Positions 46,887-63,906 of a DNA stretch of 64,000 nt are shown one piece after another. The notes beneath the pieces are model-generated. The model saw nothing but the letters and a program-made list of their open reading frames with translations. It searched no databases and was not told the DNA's origin. Source of the stretch: Gemmataceae bacterium (GTDB taxonomy: Bacteria; Planctomycetota; Planctomycetia; Gemmatales; Gemmataceae). The stretch spans positions 1 to 64,000 of the forward strand of contig JAIEMG010000205.1 in the NCBI GenBank assembly GCA_019752375.1, read 5' to 3'. The stretch's first letter is position 1. Each line of letters opens with the position of its first letter. A program made the position numbers and the translations under genes.

Positions 46887-46893
46887 GACTGAC

Positions 46894-48005: not shown

Positions 48006-48052
48006 GTCAGTTCTCCGTTTGGCGTCCCTTGTCCCTTCCCCCCTACACTCCA

Positions 48053-48202: not shown

Positions 48203-48218
48203 GAGTTAGGAGGATGTG

Positions 48219-48287
48219 ATGCCCAGCAAACCAGGTGTCCGATTCGTGCCAGCGGGTAGGATGGGGAGCGTCAGGTCGTCGCCGTAA
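48219..48287 (+). CDS. Possible leader peptide, 22 aa
   Basis: ATG after an excellent GGAGG site. The peptide MPSKPGVRFVPAGRMGSVRS is basic with no known match. It could be a leader or chance. The region 48,290-48,412 shows no other gene. Confidence 0.3.
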   Translation: MPSKPGVRFVPAGRMGSVRSSP

Positions 48288-48412
48288 AGGGTGTTTTTAT
48301 AACGGGTTGCGGCGAGGCGGTGGCGGGCGTCCGGGGCGGGGGCGGTACAGTCGCAACACGCCACCCACCACCAAAATGAACCACCCAATCTCGCCAGGTA
48401 ACCACCAGCCCC

Positions 48413-48441
48413 AAAAAAAAGCCCACCAGCAGGAAGGTGGG
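48413..48441 (-). terminator. Rho-independent terminator of the leftward HTH gene
   Basis: On the minus strand, CCCACC-8-base loop-GGTGGG is followed by C and eight T. It lies 12 bases after the end of the gene at 48,453. Confidence 0.85.
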
Positions 48442-48452
48442 TAGCGTGCTCG

Positions 48453-48716
48453 TTACTGATAGATGCTAGGCAACCTCGCCTCTGCCGTCACGGTGAGGCT
48501 CGCCCCGTCCCTGCCCCTCGCCTGCTTCTTGACGACGCAGAGGCCCCGGCCGGAGGCTTTGGCCACCCCCAGCCTTTGCCGGGTTCTGCGAACCGAGACG
48601 ATGGAGACGTGGCGACCCGTAAGCCGCGACAAAGTCGCGGCCATGTCGCGGTCCCTCAGCTGGCCGGCGTTCGCCCGCACGAATTCTTTCTCAGCGTCCG
48701 ACCAGACCTTGTTCAA
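48453..48716 (-). CDS. Phage Myb/SANT-like HTH DNA-binding protein
   Basis: 88 aa from a TTG at 48,716; longer upstream sequence is Ala/Ser-rich shadow of the opposite-strand gene. VWSDAEKEFVRANAGQLRDR, then MAATLSRLTGRHVSIVSVRR is a helix-turn-helix typical of small phage regulators. The tail is basic. Divergent from the late operon with only 28 bases between starts and closed by its own terminator, so it is probably an independent repressor or switch for that operon. Confidence 0.65.
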   Translation of the reverse strand: MNKVWSDAEKEFVRANAGQLRDRDMAATLSRLTGRHVSIVSVRRTRQRLGVAKASGRGLCVVKKQARGRDGASLTVTAEARLPSIYQ

Positions 48717-48744
48717 GGGCGTCGCCCGAAGTGTAGTATAGGGT

Positions 48745-48957
48745 ATGAGTAATCCAACAGTGTCCTCTGAACTATACACCGCGGAAGCTGCCGCTTCCCG
48801 CCAGCAGGCCCAGGCCGATGTGGGTGTTGCCGACCCGGCTGCTGACGCAGCCGAAGAAGCACTCCGGGCAAATGCCCGGTGCCCCAAGCACCCCAAAGAG
48901 AGCCTTCCCTGCGGGTTCTGCGTGGCCAATAGCTACCTGAGTGAGGAAGCCCGGTGA
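48745..48957 (+). CDS. Mini zinc-knuckle phage protein A, 70 aa
   Basis: ATG 48,745. The N-terminal half is Ala/Glu-rich and helical, the C-terminal half holds CPKHPKESLPCGFC (Cys-x2-His-Pro-x4-Pro-Cys-x2-Cys). The same spacing recurs at 49,303-49,533. First gene of the rightward operon. The stop overlaps the next GTG start. Confidence 0.68.
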   Translation: MSNPTVSSELYTAEAAASRQQAQADVGVADPAADAAEEALRANARCPKHPKESLPCGFCVANSYLSEEAR

Positions 48958-49145
48958 GCGACACAGCCATCCACGTCGTCGATAAGGTCGCTGTTCGCGA
49001 CTTGTTTCCGACGTACCAGTACCAGTCCCGCCTGTACATCACCCCCACCTTCTGCGTGGCTGTGGAGAAGCCGATGCCCGGCATGTGGCGGCGATTCTGG
49101 TACTGGGCGTTGCTCGGGTGGACGTGGAAGGCGGCGACGCCATGA
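48954..49145 (+). CDS. Small phage protein, 63 aa
   Basis: GTG start overlapping the previous stop (GTGA). Ends with a Trp-rich segment MWRRFWYWALLGWTW, perhaps membrane-associated. The stop overlaps the next ATG. Confidence 0.6.
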   Translation: MSDTAIHVVDKVAVRDLFPTYQYQSRLYITPTFCVAVEKPMPGMWRRFWYWALLGWTWKAATP

Positions 49146-49306
49146 ACCTTCTATGGGCTCTCTTGCGATTCGTCGCCGCCATGGCCTTCAGCTGGTTCCG
49201 CTGCCCGTGGTGCGGCACCTCGTTTCCTCGGTGCGGCAAGCCCGAGTGGGGGCGGCGGACCCCGGAGAATCGGCGGCAGTGCAAGCATTGCGGGAGAAAG
49301 TCATGA
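49142..49306 (+). CDS. Small phage zinc-ribbon protein, 54 aa
   Basis: ATGA overlap at both ends. A hydrophobic/aromatic start (LLWALLRFVAAMAFSWF) is followed by a zinc ribbon CPWCGTSFPRC...CKHCG. Possibly membrane-tethered. Confidence 0.65.
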   Translation: MNLLWALLRFVAAMAFSWFRCPWCGTSFPRCGKPEWGRRTPENRRQCKHCGRKS

Positions 49307-49533
49307 GCGAGCTTCGCTCGTGTGAACACCATCCGCTGTACGCGGACCCCTGTCCCATGTGCCAGGAGCCGAAACGGCTCCATAAGATGGCGACCGCGGC
49401 TGACTCCGAGCTATGCTCGGTCACTCCAGAAGAGCGAGTGCAAATCCTCAAGGGTGAGATGCCCGAGCAGACTCTTTTCGGAGGACGGATGATTGTGACG
49501 CCGCTCGGCGTCGAGGAGCTAGACCAACGATGA
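49303..49533 (+). CDS. Mini zinc-knuckle phage protein B, 76 aa
   Basis: ATGA overlap at both ends. N-terminal CEHHPLYADPCPMC repeats the Cys-x2-His-Pro-x4-Pro-Cys-x2-Cys spacing of the 48,745 gene. The C-terminal part (TPEERVQILKGEMPEQTLFG) is unrelated to it. Confidence 0.68.
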   Translation: MSELRSCEHHPLYADPCPMCQEPKRLHKMATAADSELCSVTPEERVQILKGEMPEQTLFGGRMIVTPLGVEELDQR

Positions 49534-50021
49534 ACGAGCTTTGCTCGATGACTGGTATTCCAGTCTACTACGTCGAGTCGATGGCTGACCGCGTCCAGGT
49601 CCGCTTCCCCCGCTCCAAGAAGCGTCGGATTCGCCGCAAGTGGGCGAAGCAGGCGAAGAACTTCCGGCTCGTTCCCCGCCCCGACATCATCCGAGTGGGC
49701 AACGGCCTCTACGCCCACCCCGAGACGTGGCGGGAGTTCTGCAAGCTGTACGACATCAAAGAGGCTGCCGCCGAACGCCGATTCGCCACGGTCGGTGCTC
49801 CCGGCCTGGCAGCGACTACGGGCGGTATCACGTTGCAGTCCCTGAGCGACAGTCTCGCCCTCCTAAGTAAGGTGATGCCCCAGGCCCCGGACTGGCAGTC
49901 GCCCCTCTCCTTCCAGATGCCGGAGCCGGACCTGGATAAGTCGTGGTTGTACTCCTGCTCGCCCCGCTTCGACTTTGCCCCGACGCCTTCGAGGGCCTTC
50001 CTGTGCAACACGGTGTTCTAG
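49530..50021 (+). CDS. Phage hypothetical protein, 163 aa
   Basis: ATGA overlap at the start. A strongly basic segment (RFPRSKKRRIRRKWAKQAKN) is followed by PDIIRVGNGLYAHPETWREF, reminiscent of small basic phage proteins. The C-terminus is low in motifs. Function unknown. Confidence 0.65.
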   Translation: MNELCSMTGIPVYYVESMADRVQVRFPRSKKRRIRRKWAKQAKNFRLVPRPDIIRVGNGLYAHPETWREFCKLYDIKEAAAERRFATVGAPGLAATTGGITLQSLSDSLALLSKVMPQAPDWQSPLSFQMPEPDLDKSWLYSCSPRFDFAPTPSRAFLCNTVF

Positions 50022-50041
50022 GAAGCGGCGACTACGCCACC

Positions 50042-50284
50042 ATGATTCAGACGGTCAAGATTTCCAGGGATTTGGGCCGCAAGGAACTCTTCGAGCTAGG
50101 TCGGAAGGCTCCGTACCACCGCTACGTCAATTTTCCGGTTGAGATACATCCGCAGTGGGACGCACTCAGACAGGAAATGGGCACTCTCTGCGGAGTTTGC
50201 GGCCGTTTTGTCAAAGACCACCAATTGGAAACAACCAATGATAAACCTACTGCATTATCTGAAGCATGCCACGAGCGTTTGTAG
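50042..50284 (+). CDS. Small phage protein, 80 aa
   Basis: ATG 50,042. Contains a CGVCGRFVKDH zinc-like motif. It overlaps the HNH-like gene by 19 bases. No family recognised. Confidence 0.58.
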   Translation: MIQTVKISRDLGRKELFELGRKAPYHRYVNFPVEIHPQWDALRQEMGTLCGVCGRFVKDHQLETTNDKPTALSEACHERL

Positions 50285-50841
50285 ACCACTCAGGGCGAGT
50301 GATTGGTACTCGCAAGGTACTCTCGTTTCACCACAGAAATAAGAGCGGAAACTCCATTTGGACATGGCAGTGTCTCAAATGCGGTAAGACTGGTGTTGGC
50401 CCCATAGTTCTGTTGCAGAAGCGTCGCTGTCAACGATGCTCCATCAAAGGCGAAGCCTCAAGGTCGTCAACATATCTTGGCTGTGGTCAGCTTAGCCAAC
50501 CACGATACCTAAAACTCAAGCGAGCCGCCAAAAACAGGAATTGGGAGTGGAACGTCACTCCCGAGTACCTGTGGTGCTTGTATTTGGAACAAGCCGGCCG
50601 ATGTGCGTTAAGCGGTCGGTCAATTGAGATGTTCCGTGATGACCCAATGCAAGCCAGTAGGACAACGGCGTCATTGGACCGTATTGATTCAAAAGCCGGC
50701 TATGTGCCCGGCAATGTGTGGTGGGTTCATAGGGATTTTCAGCCAATGAAAATGGATATCGACCTGTCCACGTTCGTACAAATGTGTCGCGACGTATCGA
50801 GGTATCAAACAAGCAATGCAACTACCTCCAGGCAAGACTGA
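50266..50841 (+). CDS. HNH-like / homing-type endonuclease of phage
   Basis: 191 aa. Two zinc pairs occur near residues 36-60 (CLKCGKTG, CQRC). The region CALSGRSIEM, then TASLDRIDSKAGYVPGNVWW and VHRDFQPMK is typical of phage HNH-type endonucleases, with SLDRIDS as the catalytic strand. By eye, more A+T-rich than flanking genes, consistent with later acquisition. It overlaps genes at both ends. Confidence 0.75.
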   Translation: MPRAFVDHSGRVIGTRKVLSFHHRNKSGNSIWTWQCLKCGKTGVGPIVLLQKRRCQRCSIKGEASRSSTYLGCGQLSQPRYLKLKRAAKNRNWEWNVTPEYLWCLYLEQAGRCALSGRSIEMFRDDPMQASRTTASLDRIDSKAGYVPGNVWWVHRDFQPMKMDIDLSTFVQMCRDVSRYQTSNATTSRQD

Positions 50842-51439
50842 ACAAGAAGTGATGGCGGCGATTGAGAAGGCGGTGAACATACTGGCACCGTCTTTTGTGT
50901 TCGGATACATGGACTTGGACGATATCAAACAGACGGCTCGCATGTACGGACTGCAATGCCTGCGTCAGTACGACTCGTCCAGACCGCTCGACAACTTCGT
51001 CTATTCCCATATTAAGAACAGACTTATTAACTATAAGAGAGATAATCTTCGCCGCAACGACGCCCCGTGCCGCGAGTGCCACGCCGCCTCGATGACCGGC
51101 TCGCCGTTCTCGCACCACACCGACAGCCTTCCCTGCCAAAAGTATCGGGCCTGGAAAAGCCGGAACGACAACAAGGCGAACATCATGCACCCGCTCGACC
51201 TGGACTTCATCGCCGACGAGCGGGAACCAAACACCCGGCAGGAGAGCGAGGTAGAGTCCGAGGTCGAGACCAAAGAGCTTCTCCGACTCATCGACATGAA
51301 CCTGGACGTTGACCTGCGGGCCACCTTCCTTCAAATGAAGGCCGGCCAGTCGGTGCCCAAGGCCCGCCGAATGGTGGTCGAGAAGGCCGTCCGGGACATC
51401 CTGAAGGGAGCCATCGAATGCCCAAGCGTGGACGACTAA
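50816..51439 (+). CDS. Phage sigma-70-like factor
   Basis: 207 aa. DLDDIKQTARMYGLQCLRQY, then DSSRPLDNFVYSHIKNRLIN matches sigma region 2, the core-binding and -10-recognising part. After a variable Cys/His-bearing linker, the C-terminus has helices (LRATFLQMKAGQSVPKARRM) in the position of region 4. It stands directly upstream of the terminase-like gene, overlapping it by 22 bases, so it may direct host RNA polymerase to late promoters. Confidence 0.72.
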   Translation: MQLPPGKTEQEVMAAIEKAVNILAPSFVFGYMDLDDIKQTARMYGLQCLRQYDSSRPLDNFVYSHIKNRLINYKRDNLRRNDAPCRECHAASMTGSPFSHHTDSLPCQKYRAWKSRNDNKANIMHPLDLDFIADEREPNTRQESEVESEVETKELLRLIDMNLDVDLRATFLQMKAGQSVPKARRMVVEKAVRDILKGAIECPSVDD

Positions 51440-52263
51440 GCAACGACGAGTCCAACTACATCCGCATCAACGCCCGCAAGTTGACGGTGGACGAGATTGC
51501 CGCCAACCTGGACCGGACGCCGCTCACCGTGCGGGACTTCATCGAGAAGAACGTCCCTCCGGACACGACCGGCATGACCATGCCCAAGGCCGAGGCCATC
51601 AAGGTCACCGTCCGGCAGGAACTGCGTCACTCCATGGCCTGGAAGTCGCTGAACGACGAGTTTACCAATGAGGAGCTTGAGTATTTCGAGGAACGCTACG
51701 TCACGATGATGTCGCAGTTCAAGGAAGACGTACTTCCTACGGAAGAAACTCAAATCTTCTTACTCATCAAGTTCGAAATCTTGATGAACCGCAACCTGAA
51801 AGAGCGGCGGCGTGCCCGCGACGACATCGAACGCTTGATGCGTGTCCAGACGACCCACCTGAAACAGTTTCAGGGCAAGGTGGAGAACATGGACGACGCC
51901 GCCAAGCAGTTCATGCTGAACGTCGAGACGCAAATCATCTCGGCCAAGGCCGCGGAGTCCACGCGGACCACCGAGTACGTCAAGCTCGAAGAGAAGCACC
52001 AGGCCCTGATGAAGGATTTGAAGGGCACCCGCGACCAGCGTATCTCGAAGGCGACCGACGCCAAGGTCAGCTTCCTGGGGCTCATCAAGAACCTCCAGGA
52101 GCACGACATCCGCGAAGCCGAAGGCCGGCAGATGGAACTCATGCGACTGGCCACCGAGAAGGAGTTACGGCGGCTCGGCCAGCCGCACAAGTACGACGAC
52201 GGCAACCAGGACCAGCCGGTGCTATCGGCTGAAACGGTGGAGATGCTCGATGAGCTTGAATAG
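51418..52263 (+). CDS. Probable small terminase subunit
   Basis: 281 aa. An N-terminal HTH-like part (LSNDESNYIRINARKLTVDE, IAANLDRTPLTV) precedes long helices with charged heptads up to about residue 250. This, and its position ahead of the large subunit, fit a DNA-recognising small terminase. No direct family match is visible, and genes lie between it and the large subunit, so the call is contextual. Confidence 0.55.
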   Translation: MPKRGRLSNDESNYIRINARKLTVDEIAANLDRTPLTVRDFIEKNVPPDTTGMTMPKAEAIKVTVRQELRHSMAWKSLNDEFTNEELEYFEERYVTMMSQFKEDVLPTEETQIFLLIKFEILMNRNLKERRRARDDIERLMRVQTTHLKQFQGKVENMDDAAKQFMLNVETQIISAKAAESTRTTEYVKLEEKHQALMKDLKGTRDQRISKATDAKVSFLGLIKNLQEHDIREAEGRQMELMRLATEKELRRLGQPHKYDDGNQDQPVLSAETVEMLDELE

Positions 52264-52357: not shown

Positions 52358-52456
52358 ATGGGCGAGAAGTACACGGACCTCAACGGGGTCAAGTTCTGCC
52401 CCAAGTGCGACGCGGTCATGGTCGCCTGTACTCCAGCAATTTGTGCATCATCATGA
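52358..52456 (+). CDS. Tiny phage zinc protein, 32 aa, start uncertain
   Basis: ATG 52,358, ending in an ATGA overlap with the next gene. It contains FCPKC; the codons just upstream in the same frame read CPSC, so a complete four-Cys ribbon would need an unusual earlier start. Real start unresolved. Confidence 0.45.
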   Translation: MGEKYTDLNGVKFCPKCDAVMVACTPAICASS

Positions 52457-53085
52457 AACTGAAGCTGCATAGCAACTTTTCGGACTATTACGATTACCAG
52501 TTCGACCTGGACGGCGAAGTCTTCGAGCGGATGGGTACCGGCGGACCGACCCGCAGGGAAATGTTCGTTGTCATGGAGCGGCTCGGCCTCCGCGTCCCCG
52601 AATACGGCCGCGTGACCGACCTCAAGCCCCTGTGGGCGGAAGTCGTCGTTTACCTGGACGAGCGAGCCCACTGCGGCGACGGCAAGGTGAGGCTACCCCT
52701 GGAGCAGGCCATCATGCAGTACCCGCAGGCCCTGGCGTCGTGCTTCCTGCCGCCCGGTGGCGAGTCCATTCGGGAGCTTCACATCGGGAATCGGTGTTTC
52801 CGGCTGCGGTACACGTCGGTCGATGACTGGCGGTCCAACTGCGGCGAGGGCGATTGCGAGGTGTTGGGCGAGGTCTGCCTTCCTGCCTATCGCGGGAAAG
52901 TATCGCACGCCCTCTTTGCTATCGACTTCGTGCCGTGTGGTGGAAAGGAATGGGCGGTGGACTTCAACATCGCCCCAGGGATGAGGGGCTCCGGCATGGA
53001 AAGAATCATGTCGGCGAGCGATGTGGTCAAGGAATTGAAGGGATATCTTAGTTCGTTCCAAGAGGATACCAAATGCGGAAGCTAG
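52453..53085 (+). CDS. Phage ATP-grasp-like protein
   Basis: 210 aa from an ATG overlapping the previous stop. The C-terminal part HALFAIDFVPCGGKEWAVDF followed by NIAPGMRGSGME matches the metal/ATP-binding end of ATP-grasp enzymes (Asp...Asp-Phe-Asn...Pro-Gly), which ligate acids to amines or thiols. The N-terminal half is less typical. It overlaps the GDP-mannose dehydratase gene by 13 bases. Its acceptor is unknown. Confidence 0.6.
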   Translation: MKLKLHSNFSDYYDYQFDLDGEVFERMGTGGPTRREMFVVMERLGLRVPEYGRVTDLKPLWAEVVVYLDERAHCGDGKVRLPLEQAIMQYPQALASCFLPPGGESIRELHIGNRCFRLRYTSVDDWRSNCGEGDCEVLGEVCLPAYRGKVSHALFAIDFVPCGGKEWAVDFNIAPGMRGSGMERIMSASDVVKELKGYLSSFQEDTKCGS

Positions 53086-54173
53086 CGGTCATATGGGGAA
53101 TCACTGGACAGGATGGCAGCTATCTAGCTGAGTTGCTGCTGAACAAGCGATACGAGCGTGTCGTCGGCGTGAGGCGGCGGACATCGGTTAACAACGACGA
53201 GCGTCTCCGGTCCGCAATGCGTGACGACCGCTTCGAACTCATCTACGGGGACGTGACCGACGCGGCCTCGGTGAACGCCATCATTCGCCACTACCACCCG
53301 ACCGAGGTCTACAACCTCGCGGCCCAGAGTCACGTCAAGGTGTCGTTCGACGAGCCCTCGCACACTTGGGCTGCGACGGCGGGCGGGGCTCTGAACATCC
53401 TGGAGGCAATTCGGCAGGAGGCCGCGTGGCCTGGAGAGATGCGGTACTACCAGGCGTCCAGCAGCGAAATGTTCGGCTCACAGTTCACCGTCACTGCCGA
53501 CGGCCGCTGCCAGGGCGAGTATACGCCGATGGTGCCAAACTCCCCATACGCGATTGCCAAGTTGGCTGCCCACCACACGGCCCGACTATATCGCGAGGCA
53601 TACGGCCTCCACGCGAGTTCCGGCATTCTGTTCAACCACGAGAGCGAGCGGCGTGGAGACACCTTCGTCACCCGAAAGATTTCCCAGTGGGTCGCCCAGG
53701 TCGCCCTCTCCCGCAAGTGGAAGGCCAAGCCGCCCGAACTTTGCCTCGGGAACATCGAGTCCCACCGCGACTGGGGTCACGCCCAAGACTACGTGTACGC
53801 GATGTGGCTCATGCTCCAGCAGGAAAAGCCCGACGACTACGTCATCGCCACCGGCCATACGCACACGGTGAAGCAGTTCCTCGACCGTGCCCTCGCCGTC
53901 ATCGGCGTCACCGAGTCGCAGGGCCTCTACCGCATCGACCACTCCCTGTACCGTCCGTCCGAGGTGCCCTTCCTGCGTGGCGACTCGACCAAGGCGAGGA
54001 ATGTACTTGGCTGGAAGCCGGAGATTTGTTTCGACGAGCTAGTCCGCAGAATGGTGTTACATGATGCGGGGCAATTAGGTCTCGACATGGCGGGTACGAC
54101 GAGTGGCACGCGAAGACAGGAACTGGGCGGACCCGCAGTACAAAGCTTGGCGACTAGCGGTCTATCGACGTGA
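53073..54173 (+). CDS. gmd: GDP-mannose 4,6-dehydratase, phage-encoded
   Basis: 366 aa. An NAD(P)-binding Rossmann start (WGITGQDGSYLAELLL), catalytic SSSEMFG and Tyr-x3-Lys (SPYAIAK), then FNHESERRGDTFVTRKI and RDWGHAQDYV are diagnostic of Gmd, which makes GDP-4-keto-6-deoxy-mannose, the precursor of GDP-fucose, rhamnose, talose and perosamine. The extra tail after about residue 335 overlaps the next gene by 71 bases and looks non-native. The gene lies within the phage late operon. Confidence 0.93.
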   Translation: MRKLAVIWGITGQDGSYLAELLLNKRYERVVGVRRRTSVNNDERLRSAMRDDRFELIYGDVTDAASVNAIIRHYHPTEVYNLAAQSHVKVSFDEPSHTWAATAGGALNILEAIRQEAAWPGEMRYYQASSSEMFGSQFTVTADGRCQGEYTPMVPNSPYAIAKLAAHHTARLYREAYGLHASSGILFNHESERRGDTFVTRKISQWVAQVALSRKWKAKPPELCLGNIESHRDWGHAQDYVYAMWLMLQQEKPDDYVIATGHTHTVKQFLDRALAVIGVTESQGLYRIDHSLYRPSEVPFLRGDSTKARNVLGWKPEICFDELVRRMVLHDAGQLGLDMAGTTSGTRRQELGGPAVQSLATSGLST

Positions 54174-54435
54174 CAAGTTCTGCTGTCGCCAGTGCGGCAG
54201 CAAGAAGAAGCTTCAGGCTCACCATATAAAACGGTGGGCGGATTATCCCACGCTCCGTTTTGTAGTGTCGAACGGCATCACCCTGTGCAAGGCGTGCCAC
54301 GGCAAGATTTGGGGTTGCGAGGAGGATTTCGAAGCGATGTTCACTCACATGGTCAACCCGGACGGGATGGTTAGCATCCTGGCAATTCTGTATGGCGAGC
54401 AAGACAACCCCGACACCTTACACGGTCGTCCGTGA
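54103..54435 (+). CDS. HNH endonuclease next to terminase
   Basis: 110 aa from GTG 54,103. CRQCG...LQAHHIKRW...CKACHGKIWG is the standard HNH zinc-nuclease signature. HNH proteins beside terminase genes take part in DNA packaging in several tailed phages. It overlaps both neighbours. Confidence 0.9.
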   Translation: MAREDRNWADPQYKAWRLAVYRRDKFCCRQCGSKKKLQAHHIKRWADYPTLRFVVSNGITLCKACHGKIWGCEEDFEAMFTHMVNPDGMVSILAILYGEQDNPDTLHGRP

Positions 54436-54871
54436 CACGAGAGAGAAGGAAGGCTGGACCTTCCCTGCCGGTGGCCTGTGCCAAGGCACGGTCGTCGGCA
54501 CACTCCGCACGGGCGACTACTCCCTCAAGGGCTACGAGAAGCTGTTTGTCATCGAACGGAAGGGCTCCATTGGTGAGTTCGCCCGCAACATCGTTCAATC
54601 CCGCTTCGACCGAGAGCTAGTCCGTCTCGAATCATTCGCTCATCCCTTCATGGTTCTGGAATTCACGATGGAAGACATCGTGCTCTTCCCCCAGAACGCC
54701 AATCTGCCCGATTACGTCATCAAGCGGCTCCGCATCTCGCCGCAGTTCATCATGAAGCGTCTGAACGACTTCCAGGTCAAGTACCGGACCCACATCATCC
54801 TCGCCGGCAAGTACGGCCGACACGTCTCCTCCAGTCTCTTCAAGCGGATAACGGAACAATGTCCCATCTAA
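54392..54871 (+). CDS. ERCC4/XPF-type nuclease domain protein
   Basis: 159 aa. VVRDTREKEGW with the catalytic Asp, then GDYSLKGYE and the IERKGS motif define the ERCC4 nuclease fold (GDx...ERKx3D-like). RFDRELVRLESF and THIILAGKYG are also typical of phage members. It probably cuts branched or flapped DNA. The ATG overlaps the HNH gene and the stop overlaps the terminase gene. Confidence 0.88.
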   Translation: MASKTTPTPYTVVRDTREKEGWTFPAGGLCQGTVVGTLRTGDYSLKGYEKLFVIERKGSIGEFARNIVQSRFDRELVRLESFAHPFMVLEFTMEDIVLFPQNANLPDYVIKRLRISPQFIMKRLNDFQVKYRTHIILAGKYGRHVSSSLFKRITEQCPI

Positions 54872-56919
54872 AGTCCGAGCAGGAACGTCTCGCTTCCCTG
54901 CTTGAGAACGCCTGGCTCGGCCTGGGCGACACCAGCGGCATCGACATTCTCAGCCCGTTCGACCTGCGGACGCGTGAGGATATCGAGAACCCGATTCTGC
55001 ACACGCTCAAGCTGATGCGGAATCCGATGTACTTCCCATTCACCTGCAAGCACATCTTCAACATCGAACTGCTGCCGATGCAGAACGTCGTGCTCCAGGA
55101 GTTGTGGAACAAGCCGTTCCCGATGTGGATTGGTAGCCGCGGCATGGGCAAGAGCTTCCTCATGGCCCTCTACGCCATGCTCCGAGCCCTCCTGTGCCCC
55201 GGCGTGAAAATCGTCATCGTCGGTGCCGCCTTCCGCCAGGCCAAGGTCGTCTTCGAATACTGCGAGTACATCTGGTCCAACGCCCCCGTCCTCCGCGACC
55301 TGGTCGGCTCCGACCGCGGCCGTAACAACCGCGAGAACGGCCCCCGCCGCGACATCGACCGCTGCGAACTCATCATCGGCGACAGCATCATCATCGCCCT
55401 GCCCCTGGGCGACGGGAAAAAGATTCGCGGACAGCGTGCCAACTACATCATCGCGGACGAATTCGCCTCCATTCCGGAGGAGGTCTACGAGAATGTCGTC
55501 GCCGGTTTCGCGGCCGTGTCGGCGTCGCCCATCCAGCAGGTGAAGAACACCGCACGCACCAACATCCTCAAGGGCCTCGGCCTGTGGAGTAACGAGCAGG
55601 AAGAGGAGGCGGTCAAGTCGCACCGTGGCAACCAGGCCATCCTCTCCGGTACCGCCTACTACGACTTCAACCACTTCTCGAAATACTGGAAGCGGTACAA
55701 GGCCATCATCGAGAGCCGCGGGGACAAGCACAAGCTGGAGGAGATTTTCCAGGGAGAGGTGCCGCCCAACTTCAACTGGCGTGATTACTCGGTCATCCGC
55801 GTCCCCGTCGAGCTTCTCCCCGAAGGCTTCATGGACGCCAAGCACGTCGCCCGGTCCAAGGCCACCGTCCACAACGGCATCTACCTGATGGAATTTGGTG
55901 CCGTATTTGCCACCGACAGCGAAGGCTTCTTCCGCCGCTCCCTCATCGAGTCGTGCGTCGTCGGCAAAACCGCCGCCCCCATGGTCATCGACGGACACGA
56001 AGTCGTCTTCGAAGCCAGCCTGCGTGGCAACCCGAGGAAAGAGTACGTCTACGGCATCGACCCGGCGTCGGAGCAGGACAACTTCTCCATCGTCGTCATC
56101 GAGATGGCCGATGGCCACCGCCGCATCGTCTACTGCTGGACGACCACCCGCCAGAGCCACAAGGAGAAGGTAAAGGCCGGCCTTATCCGCGACCTGGACT
56201 TCTACGGCTACTGTGCCCGCAAGATTCGCGACCTGATGAAGACCTTTCCGTGCGTCCGCATGGTCATGGACTCCCAGGGCGGCGGCATCGCGGTTGAAGA
56301 AGCACTCCACGACCCCGACAAGTTCCACGGCGGTGAGAAACCCATCTGGCAAGTCATCGACCCGGACGACCACAAGGACTCCGACGACCAGCCGGGCCTC
56401 CACATCCTGGAGATGGTCCAGTTCGCCCGAGCCGACTGGGTCAGCGAGGCCAATCACGGCATGAGAAAGGACTTCGAAGACAAAGTCCTACTCTTCCCGC
56501 ACTTCGACCCGCTCAGCATCGGACTAGCTATCGAGGAAGACAAGGCGTCGCAGCGGCTCTACGACACGCTCGAAGACTGCGTCATGGAAATCGAGCAACT
56601 CAAGGACGAACTAGCGACCATCATCCACACCCAGACCGTCACCGGCCGCGACCGCTGGGACACGCCCCAAATCAAGGGAGCGGGCGGCAAGACGGGCCGG
56701 CTCCGCAAGGACCGTTACTCGGCACTTGTCATGGCCAACATGACAGCACGCACCATGCAGCGTTCGGTCAAGCCAGCGGAAGTGCAGGTCATTGGCGGCT
56801 TCGCCCACACGAGGCTGGGCAGGAAGGGTGGTGCCTTGTACACGGGACCGGACTGGTTCTGCCAAGGCGGTATCCAGAGCGGAAGCTTTGGTCAGTCTGT
56901 CCGTCGAGGCGGTGTATAA
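54859..56919 (+). CDS. Terminase large subunit
   Basis: 686 aa. The ATPase part has Walker A GSRGMGKSF (near residue 98), and Walker B YIIADEFASI (near 200). The nuclease part starts near YGIDPASEQDNFSIVV (about 400) with acidic residues suited to the RNase H fold (VRMVMDSQGGG). This motor packages DNA into the prohead. Length is above the usual 450-600. Gene order terminase-portal-protease-capsid is intact. Confidence 0.95.
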   Translation: MSHLKSEQERLASLLENAWLGLGDTSGIDILSPFDLRTREDIENPILHTLKLMRNPMYFPFTCKHIFNIELLPMQNVVLQELWNKPFPMWIGSRGMGKSFLMALYAMLRALLCPGVKIVIVGAAFRQAKVVFEYCEYIWSNAPVLRDLVGSDRGRNNRENGPRRDIDRCELIIGDSIIIALPLGDGKKIRGQRANYIIADEFASIPEEVYENVVAGFAAVSASPIQQVKNTARTNILKGLGLWSNEQEEEAVKSHRGNQAILSGTAYYDFNHFSKYWKRYKAIIESRGDKHKLEEIFQGEVPPNFNWRDYSVIRVPVELLPEGFMDAKHVARSKATVHNGIYLMEFGAVFATDSEGFFRRSLIESCVVGKTAAPMVIDGHEVVFEASLRGNPRKEYVYGIDPASEQDNFSIVVIEMADGHRRIVYCWTTTRQSHKEKVKAGLIRDLDFYGYCARKIRDLMKTFPCVRMVMDSQGGGIAVEEALHDPDKFHGGEKPIWQVIDPDDHKDSDDQPGLHILEMVQFARADWVSEANHGMRKDFEDKVLLFPHFDPLSIGLAIEEDKASQRLYDTLEDCVMEIEQLKDELATIIHTQTVTGRDRWDTPQIKGAGGKTGRLRKDRYSALVMANMTARTMQRSVKPAEVQVIGGFAHTRLGRKGGALYTGPDWFCQGGIQSGSFGQSVRRGGV

Positions 56920-56957
56920 GACCATTGCTGTTGTGAACACATTACCGGGGAAACGCC

Positions 56958-57353
56958 GTGGAACCCGTCTTTAATGAGCCGGCCATAGCTCGGTTAGTGT
57001 CTGAAGTTGAGTCTCGTTTCGAGTTGCGTCATTTGGACTCAATCAACATCACCGGACATTTTCGCGTCAGACACAAACACATCAATTCTAACAAACTCGT
57101 TTACATCTGTCGCGATGCGAACACGGGCACGCTACTGAAAGTCGGACAAACGACAAACTGGCGGGGTAGGTTCGTTTGTTACGGATATCGAGACAGAACA
57201 CTTGATGTGTGGGTGGAAGTGTTTGAGGCAAAGGATTGGCCTCATCAAGACCGAGTTGAAAATGAGCTTCGAGATTACATCGAAAACTTGGGCTGTCTCC
57301 TGCCATGGGATAACACAAGTCAGCGACTCACAAGAATGAAAGTTCGGTCATGA
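56958..57353 (+). CDS. GIY-YIG-like nuclease, possible homing gene
   Basis: 131 aa. KLVYICRDANTG, then LLKVGQTTNWRGRF and VENELRDYIEN match the order of GIY-YIG variants (YI...KxGxT...R...E). It lies between terminase and portal, a frequent homing site, and is clearly more A+T-rich by eye. It overlaps the portal start (ATGA). Confidence 0.55.
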   Translation: MEPVFNEPAIARLVSEVESRFELRHLDSINITGHFRVRHKHINSNKLVYICRDANTGTLLKVGQTTNWRGRFVCYGYRDRTLDVWVEVFEAKDWPHQDRVENELRDYIENLGCLLPWDNTSQRLTRMKVRS

Positions 57354-59572
57354 GTGTGAAGAAGCCGAAGAATCCAGCCTCCGTGGTCGAGAGTCGCCGC
57401 GACGAGCCCATGTTCACGACGTGGGCCGCGGATGGCACGGGCCAGGCGACGGCCTTCGCCTCCACCGCCAAGGCCCTCACCAACGCGGAGCCGTTCGTTC
57501 AGCGGACGGCCGGTACCAACGCCTACCAGAACGTCGCTCCAGGAAACGTCTCGGTCCGCGACGGCTACGACCGCCGCGACTACGACTACTTCCGTCCGGG
57601 CGAGGCCATCCCCACCAAGCCCAAGGAAATCATCGCCGCTTGCATGCAGGCGTATGACCGGATTGGTCCGGTCAAGAACACCATCGACCTGATGGCCGAC
57701 TTCGCCTGTGCCGGCATCGACCTGGTCCACCCGAACCCACGCATTGAGAAGTTTTTCAAGGGCTGGGCCAAGCAGGTCAAGATGAAGGACCGCACCGAGC
57801 GTGCCCTCAACCTGCTCTACCGTGGCGGCAACGTCATCATCAAGCGTCAGACCGCCAAGCTGCGGCAGGCGGACATCGACAACATCCAGCGAGCCCAGGG
57901 CGAGGCGGACTTGCCGGCCGATTCAGGCCCGAAGCCGCCGAAGAACGAGATTCCCTGGGCCTACACGATTCTCAACCCCATGAGCATCGAGGTGCTGGGT
58001 GAGGAACTCGCCCCGTTCCTGGGCTCCGACCACTTCACCTACGGCGTGAAGCTCTCGCAGAGCTTGGTCCGGAAAATCAAGAACCCGCGGACCACGACGG
58101 ATAAGGCACTTATCGCCAAGCTGCCGGCGAACATCACCGCCGCCATCCGTGCGGGCGAGACGGTGATTCCGCTCGACCCGACCAAAGTCCGGGCCATGTA
58201 TTACAAGAAGGACGACTGGCAGGTGTGGGCGAACCCCATGACCTACGCCATCCTCGAAGACCTTGTAATGCTCAAGAAGATGAAGCTGGCCGACCTGGCT
58301 GCCCTCGATGGGGCCATCAGCCACATTCGCCTCTGGAAGCTCGGCAACTTCGAGCACCGCATCCTGCCGACCGAGCACGCCATCAACCGCCTGGCCGAGA
58401 TGTTGCTGAACAACGTCGGCGGCGGCTCCATGGACCTCATCTGGACGCCCGACATCGAACTCAGCGAGACCTCCACGGAAATCGCCAAGTTCCTGGGTGA
58501 AGAGAAGTACGGTCCCGTCCTCACGGCCATCTACGCCGGCCTCGGCATTCCGCCGACCATGACTGGTGCCGCGACCCAGTCCGGCTTCACCAACAACTAC
58601 ATCTCCATCAAGACTTTGGTCGAGCGGCTCCAGTACGGCCGCGATGTCATCACGGCGATGTGGGAGGAGGAAATCCGGGCGGTCCAACTCGCGATGGGCT
58701 TCCGCTTCCCTGCCCAGTGTGTCTTCGACCGGATGACGCTGACTGACGAAGCCTCGCTGCTGGCCCTGTTCATCCAGATGGCCGACCGAGACCTCATCTC
58801 CGCGGAGACCATCCAGGAACGCTTCGGCGAGATTCCCGAGGTCGAGGAAGTGCGTATGCGTCGCGAGGCCCGCCGCCGCAAGAACGAGCAGCTGCCCGCC
58901 AAGGCCGGCCCGTTCCACACCGCGGAAAAGTCCCACGACCTCAAGAAAATCATCGCCCAGTCCGGTGCCCACGCCCCGAGCGAGTTGGGCGTCTCCATGG
59001 ACGAGAAGAAGCCGGGCGAAATGTCGCCGATGCAGCACGAGAAGAAGTTTGGCCCGAAGCCCGCCGCCCCGGTGGGTACCGCCAAGAAAAAGGGTGTCTC
59101 CGAGCAGGGACGGCCGCGGAACAAGAAGGACTCCAAGAAGCGGAAGGCACGGACGGTCAAGCCCCGCACCAAGGCGAGTTTCATGGACGCCCTGTCCTGG
59201 GCCGAGCACGCCCAGCAGGTCATCGCCGAGGTCACCCAACCGGCCTACCTCCACTCGGTCAACAAGAAGAACCTTCGTGCGTTGACGACCGCCGAGTCCG
59301 AGGCCCTGGAGAAGTTCAAGTTCGCGACGCTGGCGAACCTGGACGTTCACGCCAAGGTGGACGAGGAGGCCGTCAAGAGGGTCGTTGCTAGTCCGTTGGT
59401 TATTCCCCATCAGGTAACGCAACTCGTTAAGGCCACCGTGACCAAACACATCGAACGCGAAGGCAAGGAGCCGACCGTCGAGAAGGTTCGCCAAATCCAG
59501 GCAGCGGTCGTCGCTTTGTTCAAGGCGGATGTTGATGAAGAGGCCAGTGATTCTGGTAACGGTCCATCGTAG
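57350..59572 (+). CDS. Portal protein
   Basis: 740 aa. Gene order, size and segments such as DYFRPGEAIPTKPKEIIAAC, YTILNPMSIEVLGEEL, HAINRLAEMLLNNVGG, and SGFTNNYISIKTLVERLQYG are typical of phage portals, which form the dodecameric DNA channel. The C-terminal 250 residues are unusually long, with a Lys-rich stretch (KKKGVSEQGRPRNKKDSKKR), perhaps a fused domain. The stop region is overlapped by the next gene. Confidence 0.9.
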   Translation: MSVKKPKNPASVVESRRDEPMFTTWAADGTGQATAFASTAKALTNAEPFVQRTAGTNAYQNVAPGNVSVRDGYDRRDYDYFRPGEAIPTKPKEIIAACMQAYDRIGPVKNTIDLMADFACAGIDLVHPNPRIEKFFKGWAKQVKMKDRTERALNLLYRGGNVIIKRQTAKLRQADIDNIQRAQGEADLPADSGPKPPKNEIPWAYTILNPMSIEVLGEELAPFLGSDHFTYGVKLSQSLVRKIKNPRTTTDKALIAKLPANITAAIRAGETVIPLDPTKVRAMYYKKDDWQVWANPMTYAILEDLVMLKKMKLADLAALDGAISHIRLWKLGNFEHRILPTEHAINRLAEMLLNNVGGGSMDLIWTPDIELSETSTEIAKFLGEEKYGPVLTAIYAGLGIPPTMTGAATQSGFTNNYISIKTLVERLQYGRDVITAMWEEEIRAVQLAMGFRFPAQCVFDRMTLTDEASLLALFIQMADRDLISAETIQERFGEIPEVEEVRMRREARRRKNEQLPAKAGPFHTAEKSHDLKKIIAQSGAHAPSELGVSMDEKKPGEMSPMQHEKKFGPKPAAPVGTAKKKGVSEQGRPRNKKDSKKRKARTVKPRTKASFMDALSWAEHAQQVIAEVTQPAYLHSVNKKNLRALTTAESEALEKFKFATLANLDVHAKVDEEAVKRVVASPLVIPHQVTQLVKATVTKHIEREGKEPTVEKVRQIQAAVVALFKADVDEEASDSGNGPS

Positions 59573-60296
59573 GTACCACGAGCTAGCCCACAACCTGGAG
59601 AAGACCTGGGAACTGGCAGGAGAGTTCGCCGAGAGACCGGAAGTCGTGGTCGTCTGGGCGGACCCGGAAGTCGGCCACCTGTGGTTCTTCCAGGAACTGC
59701 TGGCGAAGGGCCTGATTCACCACCTGGTGGAGCGGCCACCGCTTCCCTGCAAGTCGGTCCGGAACACCACCTACCCCGAGTCCCACAACTTGCGGCTGGG
59801 GCTGGAGTTCATCCGGGACCACTACCGGGACGCCTACGTTTTGACCCAGATTGCGGACATCGAGCCGCGTCCGGGCGTGTACAAGTTCGTCGATAAGCAC
59901 ATGGCGGTCGGCGAGAACAAGGCCGTCCTCTTCCACTGGCCCAACCCCTCGGTGTCGGGCTGCTGGCACACGAATTTCTTCGCGGTCGCGACGGACGAAG
60001 CCTACTGGCCACCCGTTTCGACCACCGACAACGCCGACGTGCTCGAACACCAGTGGGGACAGAAGTTCGCCCGCAACTCACTGCCCGGCGTAGTGCAAAC
60101 GAACAACTTCTTTAACCGATTTTTCCTTCATTCCCATTTGAGCGAGGGCCAGCCGGCCTGGCCCGTGTTTCCGCAGGCCGGTTCCTGTGGCGTCAGTCTC
60201 AGCGTCCGCGGCCACCTGTCGTGGAGGCAGAAAGTTCGCGGTTGGCTTCAGTGGTGTAGTTCCAAGTGGAGGGCATTCAACAATGGCAAAGATTAA
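59529..60296 (+). CDS. Possible phage glycosyltransferase-like protein
   Basis: 255 aa from ATG 59,529 (or 59,535). The start VILVTVHRRYHELAHNLEKT and a mid DIEPRP acidic motif resemble GT-A-type transferases that act on NDP sugars, but a clear DxD is absent. The gene sits between portal and protease, an unusual place. With gmd in the same operon, sugar transfer to a virion protein is a reasonable inference. Confidence in the enzyme class is low. Confidence 0.45.
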   Translation: MLMKRPVILVTVHRRYHELAHNLEKTWELAGEFAERPEVVVVWADPEVGHLWFFQELLAKGLIHHLVERPPLPCKSVRNTTYPESHNLRLGLEFIRDHYRDAYVLTQIADIEPRPGVYKFVDKHMAVGENKAVLFHWPNPSVSGCWHTNFFAVATDEAYWPPVSTTDNADVLEHQWGQKFARNSLPGVVQTNNFFNRFFLHSHLSEGQPAWPVFPQAGSCGVSLSVRGHLSWRQKVRGWLQWCSSKWRAFNNGKD

Positions 60297-60606
60297 CGTC
60301 GAATTCGACACCAAAGACAAGTCCCTGTCCGTCTCCATGGACGGCAAGGCAATGGCGAACGTCGCCGGCATCTCGCTCTATCAGTCCTACGACGACGAGG
60401 ACGAGTTCCGCTGCAACGTGGTGATGGCCACCAAGGACGACACCAACGACATCCGGACGGTCACGTCCATCTACGCGTCGGAGCAGCCGAAGGCCGACGA
60501 GCAGGAAAAGGCGTTTGCCGAGGCCGGCTTCAAGGTCTCCAAGGCTTCGCCGCAGCGGGCCAACCCGATTCACCGCGACATCGCCGAGTTCCTCAAGAAG
60601 GTCTAA
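60283..60606 (+). CDS. Small phage protein between portal and protease, 107 aa
   Basis: ATG 60,283, overlapping the previous gene by 14 bases. Beta-rich with SLSVSMDGKAMANVAGISLY and an acidic middle. No family recognised; a minor head protein is possible from position. Confidence 0.6.
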   Translation: MAKINVEFDTKDKSLSVSMDGKAMANVAGISLYQSYDDEDEFRCNVVMATKDDTNDIRTVTSIYASEQPKADEQEKAFAEAGFKVSKASPQRANPIHRDIAEFLKKV

Positions 60607-60611
60607 CTCCC

Positions 60612-62309
60612 ATGTGGGAAATCCCGGTATTTGCTGCGGAACGTGAGGCCGGCCTGTCGGACGTGGTCCGTTCGACGGGCCGGCTGACTTACGCCGCCGT
60701 CGCCGAACCGTGCCCCGTCTTCGACATCTCGCAGGCCGTCGCCGGCAAGTTGGTCCAGTCCCCATACGGATACTGCCCGACTTGCAAGGCACCAGGCGTC
60801 GAGAGGGAAAGACGGCCGGACGGCAACGACAAGTGCCAGGGTGGCCACACCTACCCGTCCAAGTCCGCCCAAAGCGACGTGCCGGTTGGGAGGGCCAAGG
60901 CCACCAACGAGGGTCAGTTCGACCTCTTCTACCTGAAGACGTTGCTCGTCTCCACGGGCTGGAACCTCAACGACGACGTGTTCGACCTCGGCGAGGTGTG
61001 GGCGGCTCGCAAGACCCCGGAAGACAAGCAGTTCAACTACGAGCACGACTGCAAGGACATCATTGGCCACATCACGGACACCCACGTCGTTGACGTTGAG
61101 GGCAAGGCCCTGGCGGACGACTTGGTGGCCGACGATTTGCCGCCGAAGTTCCACGTCGTCACGAACGCGGTCCTCTACCGCTACTGGGCGGACAAAGACC
61201 TCCAGAAGCGGATGGACACGATTGTCGCCGAGGTCGCCGAGGGCAAGTGGTTCGTGAGCATGGAGGCCCTGTTCCGGGGCTTCGACTATGCGGTCGTGCG
61301 TGCGGACAACACCACGTCCATCATCGCCCGCAACCAAGAAACCGCCTTCTTGACCAAACACCTTCGTGCATACGGCGGCACCGGCACCTTCAACAACATG
61401 AAGGTCGGTCGCCTCATGCGAAACATCACATTCTCGGGCAAGGGTTTGGTCCGGAAACCGGCGAACCCCGAGTCCATTATTTTTTCCGACACCGAATCCT
61501 TCACCGCAACTGTTGGGAAATTTTCTCAGCTTGAGATGGAGTCGGGGTATGGAACTGTGAGCGACGACCCGTCGCAGACCAAGGAGAGCAAGTCAATGGC
61601 AGTCGAACTCGAAGTCCTCAACAAGCAGGTCGAGGCACTCAAGGCCGATAACGAAAAGCTTCAGGCCGAACTGCGTGACAGCAACGTCAAGGCAGTCACC
61701 GCCGCGAAGGTGAAGCTGGAAGCCGACCTCAAGGTCGCCCAGGAAGCCATCGAGAAGCTCCAGGCCGACAACAAGGCTGCCACCGCAGCCCTCGCCAAGG
61801 TCGAGGCCGAAAAGGCTGAAGTCGCCAAGACTCTCAACGAAACACAGGCTTCGCTCGCGACCATCCAGGCCGCACAGCAGAAGGCTGCTCGCGTCGCGAC
61901 CGCCAAGGAAAAGCTCGGCATCGCCGACGACAAGGCCAACAAGTTGGTCGAGTCCCTGGCCAGTCTGAGCGACGAGCAGTTCCAGGCCAACATCCAGACG
62001 CAGGCCGACTACCTCGAAGAGGTCAAGTCCGCCGCCGTCAAGAGCACCCCGGCCCCACTACCGCCGACGAGCACGCCGGCCCCGGTCGCCATGGGCTTCC
62101 CGAACAAGGTCAAAACCCTTGCAACCGCCGCGGCAGTGGAAACTGACTCGGCCGACGCCAACGCCAACCCGGCCGTCCTCGAAACCGCCACGCCGGCCTC
62201 CGAGCCAGCACTAGCGACGGGTTCGACCGATGACGGTGTAGAGACTACTCGGGCCTCCATCGCGGACTTCCTGATGAGCGGCTACATGAGTGGCGGCAAG
62301 ACCAAGTAA
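60612..62309 (+). CDS. Prohead protease fused to a scaffold domain
   Basis: 565 aa. The N-terminal half has NYEHDCKDIIGHITDTHVVD with a catalytic-type His and WFVSMEALFRGF with a Ser in the S-x-E context of prohead proteases. Residues about 330-480 are a long coiled coil rich in KAEVAK and ALKADNEKLQAEL, then a Pro/Ala/Thr-rich tail: a scaffold. Some phages fuse the two as here. A second start inside (61,596) could give free scaffold. Confidence 0.8.
   Translation: MWEIPVFAAEREAGLSDVVRSTGRLTYAAVAEPCPVFDISQAVAGKLVQSPYGYCPTCKAPGVERERRPDGNDKCQGGHTYPSKSAQSDVPVGRAKATNEGQFDLFYLKTLLVSTGWNLNDDVFDLGEVWAARKTPEDKQFNYEHDCKDIIGHITDTHVVDVEGKALADDLVADDLPPKFHVVTNAVLYRYWADKDLQKRMDTIVAEVAEGKWFVSMEALFRGFDYAVVRADNTTSIIARNQETAFLTKHLRAYGGTGTFNNMKVGRLMRNITFSGKGLVRKPANPESIIFSDTESFTATVGKFSQLEMESGYGTVSDDPSQTKESKSMAVELEVLNKQVEALKADNEKLQAELRDSNVKAVTAAKVKLEADLKVAQEAIEKLQADNKAATAALAKVEAEKAEVAKTLNETQASLATIQAAQQKAARVATAKEKLGIADDKANKLVESLASLSDEQFQANIQTQADYLEEVKSAAVKSTPAPLPPTSTPAPVAMGFPNKVKTLATAAAVETDSADANANPAVLETATPASEPALATGSTDDGVETTRASIADFLMSGYMSGGKTK
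61596..62309 (+). CDS. Internal in-frame scaffold protein start
   Basis: ATG 61,596 (residue 329 of the fusion) is preceded by AAGGAGAG at a 9-base spacing, and its product MAVELEVLNKQVEALKADNE begins exactly at the coiled coil. Lambda makes its Nu3 scaffold from gene C in this way. About 237 aa. Confidence 0.55.
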   Translation: MAVELEVLNKQVEALKADNEKLQAELRDSNVKAVTAAKVKLEADLKVAQEAIEKLQADNKAATAALAKVEAEKAEVAKTLNETQASLATIQAAQQKAARVATAKEKLGIADDKANKLVESLASLSDEQFQANIQTQADYLEEVKSAAVKSTPAPLPPTSTPAPVAMGFPNKVKTLATAAAVETDSADANANPAVLETATPASEPALATGSTDDGVETTRASIADFLMSGYMSGGKTK

Positions 62310-62360: not shown

Positions 62361-62837
62361 ATGGCACTCAAGGGTGACCGCCACATCGTTCAGACCGAAA
62401 TCAGCTTCTCGCTCAGCGATGTCGCCGAGCGTGGCGTCGTGGTCATGTACAGCGTCGCCGGCTCCGGCCACGCACTCGCGGACGCCGCGGGTACGGTGAC
62501 TTTGCTCGCCGCCAACTCTTCCGGTAACAAGCCGGCCGGCCTCTTGCTGAACGACTTCGTCAGCATCGACCAGACGGTCACGCACCGCAACTGGCACAAG
62601 GACGTTCAGGTTCTCGGCGAGCGTGCGACTCTCCTCCGCAAGGGCTGGGTCGTCAGCAACAAAATCACCGGCACGCCGACTCTCGGTGCGACGGCCTACG
62701 TCGCCGCGTCCGGCCTGATGACCCCGAGCAAGCACGCCACTGGTGGCGAGGCCATGACGCCGAAGTGCGGCGAGTTCATGGGCATCAAGGACGAGGACGG
62801 CTACTGCAAGGTGGCCATCGAACTGCCGGCCATCTAA
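62361..62837 (+). CDS. Probable head decoration protein
   Basis: 158 aa. Beta-rich, located between protease and capsid genes, with GHALADAAGTVTLLAANSSG and GLMTPSKHATGGEAMTPKCG, similar in style to small phage decoration proteins. ATG after GAGGAGA. Function by position. Confidence 0.62.
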   Translation: MALKGDRHIVQTEISFSLSDVAERGVVVMYSVAGSGHALADAAGTVTLLAANSSGNKPAGLLLNDFVSIDQTVTHRNWHKDVQVLGERATLLRKGWVVSNKITGTPTLGATAYVAASGLMTPSKHATGGEAMTPKCGEFMGIKDEDGYCKVAIELPAI

Positions 62838-62895: not shown

Positions 62896-63906
62896 ATGGC
62901 ACGGTTCAAGACGCCTAGCGTCGAAATGGTAAAGCTGCTGTGTGATTCGGGCTCGACCAACTACGCCACGGCGAGTGCGGCCCTTCACGAACTCGCGGTC
63001 GCTCTGACCCTTCCGCTCAAGCAGGGCGTCATGAAGGGTGACATCATCGGGGGCATCTTCGAGCCCATCAAGTTCCAGCCGGGTGCGGCCATCGAATTCC
63101 CGTTGGACTTCCTGAGCCCAGGCTCCGAGAAGGACTACGTGGCCTACACAATTCCGAACCAGGGTCGGATTCCTGAGCGTCACGTTGAAGGCGACTTCGT
63201 CATGGTGCCGGTCTACGACGTGGGCTGCTCCATCGACTGGAACCTCAAGTACGCCCGCGACGCCCGCTGGGACATCATCGGCCGTGCCATGCAGGTGCTG
63301 GAGTCCTCGTTCGTTCGCAAGAACAACAACGACGGCTGGCACACCTTGCTGGCCGCTGGCGTCGGTCGCGGCCTGGTCATCTACGATGACGCGGGCACTG
63401 CCGGTCTCTTCACGAAGCGGCTCGTCGCCCTCATGAAGACCTCGATGCGTCGCTACGGCGGCGGCAACAGCACCAGCATCAACCGCGGCAAGCTCACGGA
63501 CCTCTACATGAGCCCCGAGGCCCTCGAAGACATCCGCTCGTGGGATTTGAGCCAGGTCGATGACACGACCCGCCGTCAAATCTTCATCGGCGGTGGCGAC
63601 ACCGAAGCGGCACTGTCGAACATCTTCGGCGTCAACCTGCACGATATCGACGAACTGGGCGTCGGCCAGGAGTACCAGGCGTACTACACCAGCACCCTCG
63701 GCGGCTCGCTGCCGGGCAGCAAGGTGGAGACGGTCATCGGCCTCGACCTGTCCAAGAACGACAGCTTCGTCAACCCGATTCGTCAGGAAATCGAAATCTT
63801 CGAAGACCCGACCTTCCACCGTCAGCGTCGGGCCAGCATGTACGGCTGGGGCGAGCACGGCTTCTCCGTCCTGGACAGCCGCCGCATCCTGCTCGGTGCC
63901 CTCTAA
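62896..63906 (+). CDS. Major capsid protein
   Basis: 336 aa, following protease/scaffold and decoration genes. Segments such as IPNQGRIPERHVEGDFVMVP, KLTDLYMSPEALEDIRSWD, and ASMYGWGEHGFSVLDSRRI fit an HK97-type capsid. ATG after AGAGGAGA. It is the last complete gene before a strong terminator. Confidence 0.88.
   Translation: MARFKTPSVEMVKLLCDSGSTNYATASAALHELAVALTLPLKQGVMKGDIIGGIFEPIKFQPGAAIEFPLDFLSPGSEKDYVAYTIPNQGRIPERHVEGDFVMVPVYDVGCSIDWNLKYARDARWDIIGRAMQVLESSFVRKNNNDGWHTLLAAGVGRGLVIYDDAGTAGLFTKRLVALMKTSMRRYGGGNSTSINRGKLTDLYMSPEALEDIRSWDLSQVDDTTRRQIFIGGGDTEAALSNIFGVNLHDIDELGVGQEYQAYYTSTLGGSLPGSKVETVIGLDLSKNDSFVNPIRQEIEIFEDPTFHRQRRASMYGWGEHGFSVLDSRRILLGAL

Follow-up and report, generated by a model that had tools for sequence, protein, structure and literature searches.

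The window analysed here comprises bases 1–64000 of contig C5 (JAIEMG010000205.1; 78,816 bp), part of an 8.46 Mb genome bin of a Gemmataceae bacterium, and our subject is a gene of the GDP-mannose 4,6-dehydratase family (gmd) located among phage packaging genes. The bin contains 21 matches to the SBP_bac_10 family, against none in 14 control genomes; this family is typical of planctomycetes, and the bin is probably planctomycete by that criterion too. A packed plus-strand run of terminase, portal and capsid genes at 50.8–63.9 kb contains gmd, in the order sigma-like, 281-aa, ATP-grasp-like, gmd, HNH, ERCC4, terminase large subunit (TerL), T5orf172-like, portal, 255-aa, small, 565-aa, 158-aa and capsid (Table 1). 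Because adjacent genes overlap at 8 of the 13 junctions and the widest gap, 5' of the ATP-grasp-like gene, measures 189 bp, the arrangement suggests one transcription unit. A preliminary description of this DNA had placed gmd among terminase and nuclease genes, with a transferase-like gene after the portal; both placements hold, as HNH, ERCC4 and TerL lie directly 3' of gmd on the plus strand and the 255-aa gene overlaps the portal gene end by 44 bp.

The family assignment made in that description was borne out as well. The 366-aa product matches Pfam GDP_Man_Dehyd (PF16363) with an E-value of 1.7e-109 and 366.7 bits (cut-off 27), covering model positions 2–332 of 332. Its nearest solved structures are all Gmd enzymes or an unnamed relative, with alignments that span the catalytic motifs (e.g. 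1db3). The catalytic residues of the window protein are S130, E132, Y159 and K163, belonging to S/T-x-E and Y-x3-K, which we take to be the catalytic motifs of Gmd, with GxxGxxG as its cofactor loop. Both catalytic motifs are kept in 122/122 Gmds of the packaging module, and the three glycines in 120, the other two being gapped. The median ratio of nonsynonymous to synonymous substitution rates (dN/dS) was ~0.16 for Gmd (138 non-independent pairs) and 0.10 for TerL, indicating purifying selection on Gmd. Near-duplicate contigs enter the sets of 122 Gmds, 125 module loci and 138 pairs, so that none of these is an independent sample. From its domain and residues, the enzyme would be expected to convert GDP-mannose to GDP-4-keto-6-deoxymannose.

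A Gmd-based scan of viral contigs returned 140 relatives; in 58 of the 80 retained, gmd adjoins HNH and ERCC4 in the same order, with TerL following on contigs long enough to include it, and in 22 it does not. Since this sample was chosen by Gmd itself, the search was repeated with TerL, keeping 80 of 581 viral matches together with three genome-bin loci. Among these 83 loci, gmd lies just upstream of TerL in 52, is absent from 16 and was not assessable in 15 where the contig ends too early; because the scan alignment was made from gmd-bearing loci only (24 rows), 52 of 68 assessable loci may overstate the share of gmd across the lineage. Where present, it sits between the conserved 281-aa gene and the HNH, ERCC4 and TerL genes. 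At the 16 loci lacking it, the 281-aa gene abuts HNH with gaps of -1 to 33 bp, and no Epimerase-family gene was found in the three searched gmd-minus records longer than 50 kb (L108, L121 and L143). Contigs of the lineage reach 244 kb. Among 50,697 deposited phage records, the window capsid protein had no match at an E-value of 1e-5, and TerL matched nine records at 26–28% identity. These results confirm a lineage of large uncultured phages in which the arrangement is not a one-off, the recurrence of the same order on dozens of viral contigs being more than chance. The location had initially been called unusual, which remains apt relative to other viruses, in which gmd and fcl mostly lie close together, and fails within this lineage, where the arrangement is the rule. 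Among the open-access papers listed by our searches, none was recognized as reporting a gmd gene within the packaging genes of a phage.

Phylogenies were quick trees without bootstrap, with rows reduced at 95% TerL identity (95 of 150 retained); the Gmd tree omits five weak hits from hosts (L004–L008). Across the 95 reduced rows of the TerL tree (73 with gmd, 12 without and 10 unknown), presence and absence of gmd can be accommodated by four changes. In the Gmd tree (n=96), 71 module Gmds fall on one side of a single branch with a Shimodaira–Hasegawa-like approximate likelihood ratio (SH-aLRT) support of 98, and on the other side lie 22 other viral, two bin and one cyanophage Gmd. Distances in the two trees correlate with r 0.70, a value reached in 0/500 permutations. 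The trees thus show the module Gmds as one clade, broadly tracking TerL. Position and co-inheritance with TerL would also be expected if Gmd served as a structural or regulatory packaging protein whose enzyme activity is a relic; we regard this as extremely improbable, the catalytic residues intact in every module Gmd being unexpected had activity been lost.

The interval between the 281-aa gene and HNH is a variable slot. In some relatives it holds genes for GT90, an acyl carrier protein with an FkbM methyltransferase, a type-24 methyltransferase, a fatty-acid hydroxylase, an ornithine cyclodeaminase family protein or a GAPDH-like protein. Ten slot proteins were compared with Pfam; one example of each named type passed the cut-off, a 2OG-oxygenase match fell below it and two more had no match. 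A sulfotransferase-looking protein (L106 3834–4586) lacked a Pfam match and was left unnamed, as were its look-alikes in L145, L156 and L171. The acyl carrier protein and FkbM-type methyltransferase genes lie directly 5' of gmd in L044 (8821–10001) and L052 (8658–9938), with Pfam assignment for L044 only.

In the window the slot also carries the 210-aa gene, which overlaps the gmd start by 13 bp. Its product had no Pfam or PHROG match, and a low-confidence model with a predicted local distance difference test score (pLDDT) of 56.5 found ATP-grasp-fold proteins in all 50 listed Foldseek matches and a VIA-align Z of up to 9.2. Relatives occur in Moorella phage MTATph1 (42% identity), L203 (41%) and L204 (36%); no homologue was found in the module relatives searched, and broadening the scan for ATP-grasp-like relatives brought in no further contig. 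By this distribution the gene is a visitor to the slot, not a conserved part of the module, and need not belong to the pathway. An ATP-grasp gene overlapping gmd had been described as part of the set; the overlap stands and the fold stands weakly, whereas membership of a conserved set does not. In the MTATph1 record (L228 3001–3624), the relative is spread over separate short hypothetical coding sequences, and the annotation may split one ATP-grasp-like gene.

Such variety invites the explanation that gmd is itself one cargo gene among many, lodged in a tolerated slot beside a homing-type HNH gene and useful as an auxiliary gene, with a position that says nothing about its target. The mixed contents of the slot, including the ATP-grasp-like gene here, and the clean absence of gmd from some loci are consistent with this. 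Weighed against them, gmd is far more constant than the other slot genes, broadly follows the TerL tree and requires only the four changes given above, and we consider the cargo explanation unlikely.

The 255-aa protein following the portal was predicted to adopt a glycosyltransferase fold. It matched no glycosyltransferase family in Pfam, PHROGs or NCBIfam, and an AlphaFold2 model built from eight sequences reached a pLDDT of 81.5. All 50 listed Foldseek matches were glycosyltransferases or enzymes with glycosyltransferase domains, as were all 50 listed VIA-align matches (Z 13.7–15.5), led by chondroitin polymerase (15.5) and the GDP-fucose-using fucosyltransferase WrtF (15.2). Many of the viral structure matches listed were named glycosyltransferases and the remainder were mostly unnamed. 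The protein is therefore predicted to be like glycosyltransferases of the GT-A fold, and not of the unrelated fold that the preliminary description had named as the contrary outcome. A single-sequence search found no relatives in the 50,697 phage records, the first viral scan or 58 other related genomes; relatives were instead reached through gmd and TerL neighbours, followed by an alignment scan. The nearest, found by synteny, is L011 (49% identity), and further ones came from L095–L097, L126, L128 and L153. The alignment scan placed relatives on 31 viral contigs, directly 3' of the portal gene in all 31, and gmd is present on each of the 17 transferase-bearing contigs with the 281-aa gene in view. 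Median dN/dS was 0.18 for the transferase-like gene, from three pairs only.

Table 1. Genes of the packed run, with window positions and the basis of each assignment
Feature	Position	Strand	Evidence and context
Sigma-factor-like protein	50816..51439	+	First gene of conserved module; NCBIfam sigma70-ECF 2.9e-6, below cut-off; adjoins 281-aa gene in relatives
Conserved 281-aa protein	51418..52263	+	Directly before gmd slot; homologues 34–53% identical, same place in relatives
ATP-grasp-like 210-aa protein	52453..53085	+	Variable cargo of slot; low-confidence model matches ATP-grasp folds
gmd, GDP-mannose 4,6-dehydratase family, 366 aa	53073..54173	+	Pfam GDP_Man_Dehyd, intact catalytic motifs
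HNH endonuclease	54103..54435	+	Pfam HNH 4.6e-7; adjoins gmd in most relatives
ERCC4-type nuclease	54392..54871	+	Pfam ERCC4 2.3e-7; PHROG 3490 1.6e-13
Terminase large subunit (TerL)	54859..56919	+	Pfam Terminase_6N 1.5e-7; PHROG 2 2.1e-23
T5orf172-like protein, probably mobile	56958..57353	+	Pfam T5orf172 0.0022, below cut-off
Portal protein	57350..59572	+	PHROG 2739 5.8e-5 (weak); conserved 3' of TerL in relatives
255-aa GT-A-fold glycosyltransferase-like protein	59529..60296	+	Predicted fold; overlaps portal gene end by 44 bp
Small protein 3' of transferase-like gene	60283..60606	+	Relative in L011, 41% identical
Conserved 565-aa head-region protein	60612..62309	+	Homologues between portal and major capsid protein in relatives
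Conserved 158-aa protein before capsid gene	62361..62837	+	Homologues at same place in relatives
HK97-fold major capsid protein	62896..63906	+	NCBIfam capsid_Caudo_2 1.8e-5, below cut-off; 53–74% identical in relatives

By its position alone, the 281-aa protein could possibly act as a small terminase. To the left of the head run, among small minus-strand genes, lies a Gene product 88 family protein (PF17338, 7.9e-44; window 47055–47831, minus strand). A 191-aa protein at window 50266–50841 has a 37% identical relative later in the same phage on the opposite strand (L009 13279–13758) and may be a repeated mobile gene.

The reading we favour, held with roughly even confidence, is that the Gmd of the packaging run supplies a deoxyhexose for glycosylation, with the virion as the most likely target. 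Under this proposal, gmd would be ancestral and functional in an uncultured lineage of large phages, expressed late and co-transcribed with the packaging and head genes. Gmd would convert host-derived GDP-mannose to GDP-4-keto-6-deoxymannose, and a reductase, supplied by the host or, in some relatives, by the phage itself as Fcl, would then produce a GDP-deoxyhexose, in the simplest case GDP-L-fucose. The sugar would be attached by phage glycosyltransferases, here probably by the GT-A protein whose gene follows the portal gene, and the most likely acceptor would be a virion protein synthesized concurrently; the benefit may be protection of the particle or adjustment of its adsorption. A virion acceptor is favoured because of the position of gmd and the overlap of the transferase-like and portal genes, which together suggest that these phages sugar-coat their own particles. 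A bolder version, which we offer only tentatively, holds that synthesis of the deoxyhexose donor has ancestrally belonged to the packaging programme, with Gmd made alongside terminase and portal. In one subclade, a transferase whose gene overlaps or adjoins that of the portal would then sugar the portal or the procapsid as it assembles, making virion glycosylation an integral step of head maturation.

Several observations weigh against virion glycosylation by this route. The window Gmd scores 385.2 bits against NCBIfam gmd TIGR01472, under the equivalog cut-off of 415, and for this reason the protein is filed in the Gmd family by domain and residues, its exact activity being inferred. A promoter scan of the run gave two sites against 2.5 expected, nothing above chance. 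The 16 loci without gmd indicate that the gene is not essential. Within the window subclade the trees are discordant, since L175, L153, L201 and L202 join the window in the TerL tree and not in the Gmd tree; some exchange of gmd is therefore likely. The canonical DXD motif is missing from the 255-aa protein, only its first aspartate (D110) being invariant in the eight sequences; some GT-A enzymes lack DXD. The transferase-like gene is confined to one subclade, so its occurrence in 22 of 96 gmd-plus and 0 of 15 gmd-minus loci (all loci with portal and 565-aa genes, duplicates included) lends no independent support. Finally, fcl lies within 5 kb of gmd at 6 of 125 module loci compared with 15 of 22 other viral gmd loci, counts that contig ends make lower bounds in both groups, and none was found on contig C5. 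With fcl not found on C5 and rarely near gmd, the second pathway step must come from elsewhere.

Possible sources are the bin, whose contig C247 carries adjacent gmd and fcl genes, and the large relatives, of which 6 of 33 carry Fcl-family genes (263–300 bits, below the strict cut-off of 500). In L122 and L129 (both 4933–5871) and L172 (4675–5595), a minus-strand Fcl-family gene lies upstream of the sigma-like gene, ~2.1–2.4 kb from gmd. A GT11 fucosyltransferase family gene occurs in two of the 33 large relatives, and GT2 genes occur in 14 at an E-value of 0.001, 13 of them over the cut-off. The 206 kb contig of L097 (L207–L217), which bears the portal-linked transferase, has six GT2-like matches, some below cut-off, and gmd is its single Epimerase-family gene.

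These distributions bear on a serious rival, if a somewhat improbable one, in which the Gmd product is destined for surface glycans of the infected host (lipopolysaccharide or exopolysaccharide), altering receptors or excluding other phages. PMC9602691 and PMC5332604 propose this role for the Gmd and related genes of cyanophages and marine phages, and the same has been suggested of phage lipopolysaccharide genes at large. The GT2 enzymes of the large relatives, some of which have broad sugar clusters, and the gmd and fcl genes of the bin are compatible with it; in this lineage, by contrast, gmd occupies the packaging run and not a sugar cluster, and in the window phage the putative transferase gene overlaps the portal gene. 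A surface change in lysogeny is less likely in particular, because no tyrosine integrase was found on C5 and none over the cut-off in the 33 relatives (one weaker match, G081).

On the same integrase result, gmd as prophage cargo was not adopted as an explanation. Contig C5 joins ~41 kb of bacterial genes to ~38 kb of phage sequence reaching the contig end (transition at window 38000–50800); genes up to ~41 kb look bacterial, e.g. a WD40 repeat protein, and from 50.8 kb many match viral contigs. The junction may be either a true prophage integration or a misassembled join; TerL was found in one of 397 genomes of the window's class, the window's own. As the contig joins bacterial to phage DNA, the phage host is uncertain.

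Phage glycosyltransferases that modify DNA are known, and the packaging genes adjoin gmd, so the sugar might instead be placed on phage DNA through a hydroxylated base, shielding it from restriction. Such DNA-modifying enzymes are also cited in PMC12619734. A thymidylate synthase/hydroxymethylase family gene was present in 0 of 15 large relatives, with 9 of 14 controls positive, which makes a hydroxymethyl-base route less likely; a Tet/JBP search gave 0 of 15 but matched nothing in its control either, and carries no weight here. We consider DNA, which the preliminary description had offered beside the capsid as an acceptor, very unlikely.

Sugar genes in phages are commonly interpreted as auxiliary functions for changing the host. 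In this case a sugar gene is instead a long-kept syntenic neighbour of TerL, apart from fcl, in a lineage with no close deposited phage. Should the virions carry sugar, the supply of nucleotide sugar would be tied to head assembly, and these phages would form a clear set for probing the function of virion glycans; the coexistence of gmd-plus and gmd-minus relatives makes the question testable.

Among known systems, Bacillus phages Slash, Staley, Stahl and Stills provide some of the few deposited TerL matches, at ~28% identity over 62% of the protein, and are too distant to belong to the same lineage, the window capsid being unmatched in the same collection. Moraphages, large aquatic phages described in PMC12619734, are likewise large and uncultured and have glycosyltransferases in their core; their core table shows T4-type tail genes, and the words 'mannose', 'dehydratase' and 'epimerase' are absent from the main text of that article. 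The fold of the 255-aa protein resembles WrtF (PDB 9omh and others) and other GT-A enzymes with Z ~15 over ~176 residues, whereas sequence identity is ~10–11% and the protein lacks both a known sequence family and the canonical DXD.

The gmd–fcl clusters of cyanophages such as Synechococcus phage S-CAM7 similarly combine a phage Gmd (51% identical to that of the window) with a nearby glycosyltransferase. In S-CAM7, fcl, a sugar dehydrase and GT11 come after gmd, and the 9 kb examined carries no annotated head gene; in contrast, the window gmd lacks fcl, lies inside a terminase–portal–capsid run and encodes a Gmd of a separate clade. In mycobacteriophages, virion glycosylation places glycans on capsid and tail tube proteins, as reported in PMC12619734. 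The likeness to mycobacteriophages lies in the reading proposed here; this lineage adds a nucleotide-sugar enzyme among the packaging genes.

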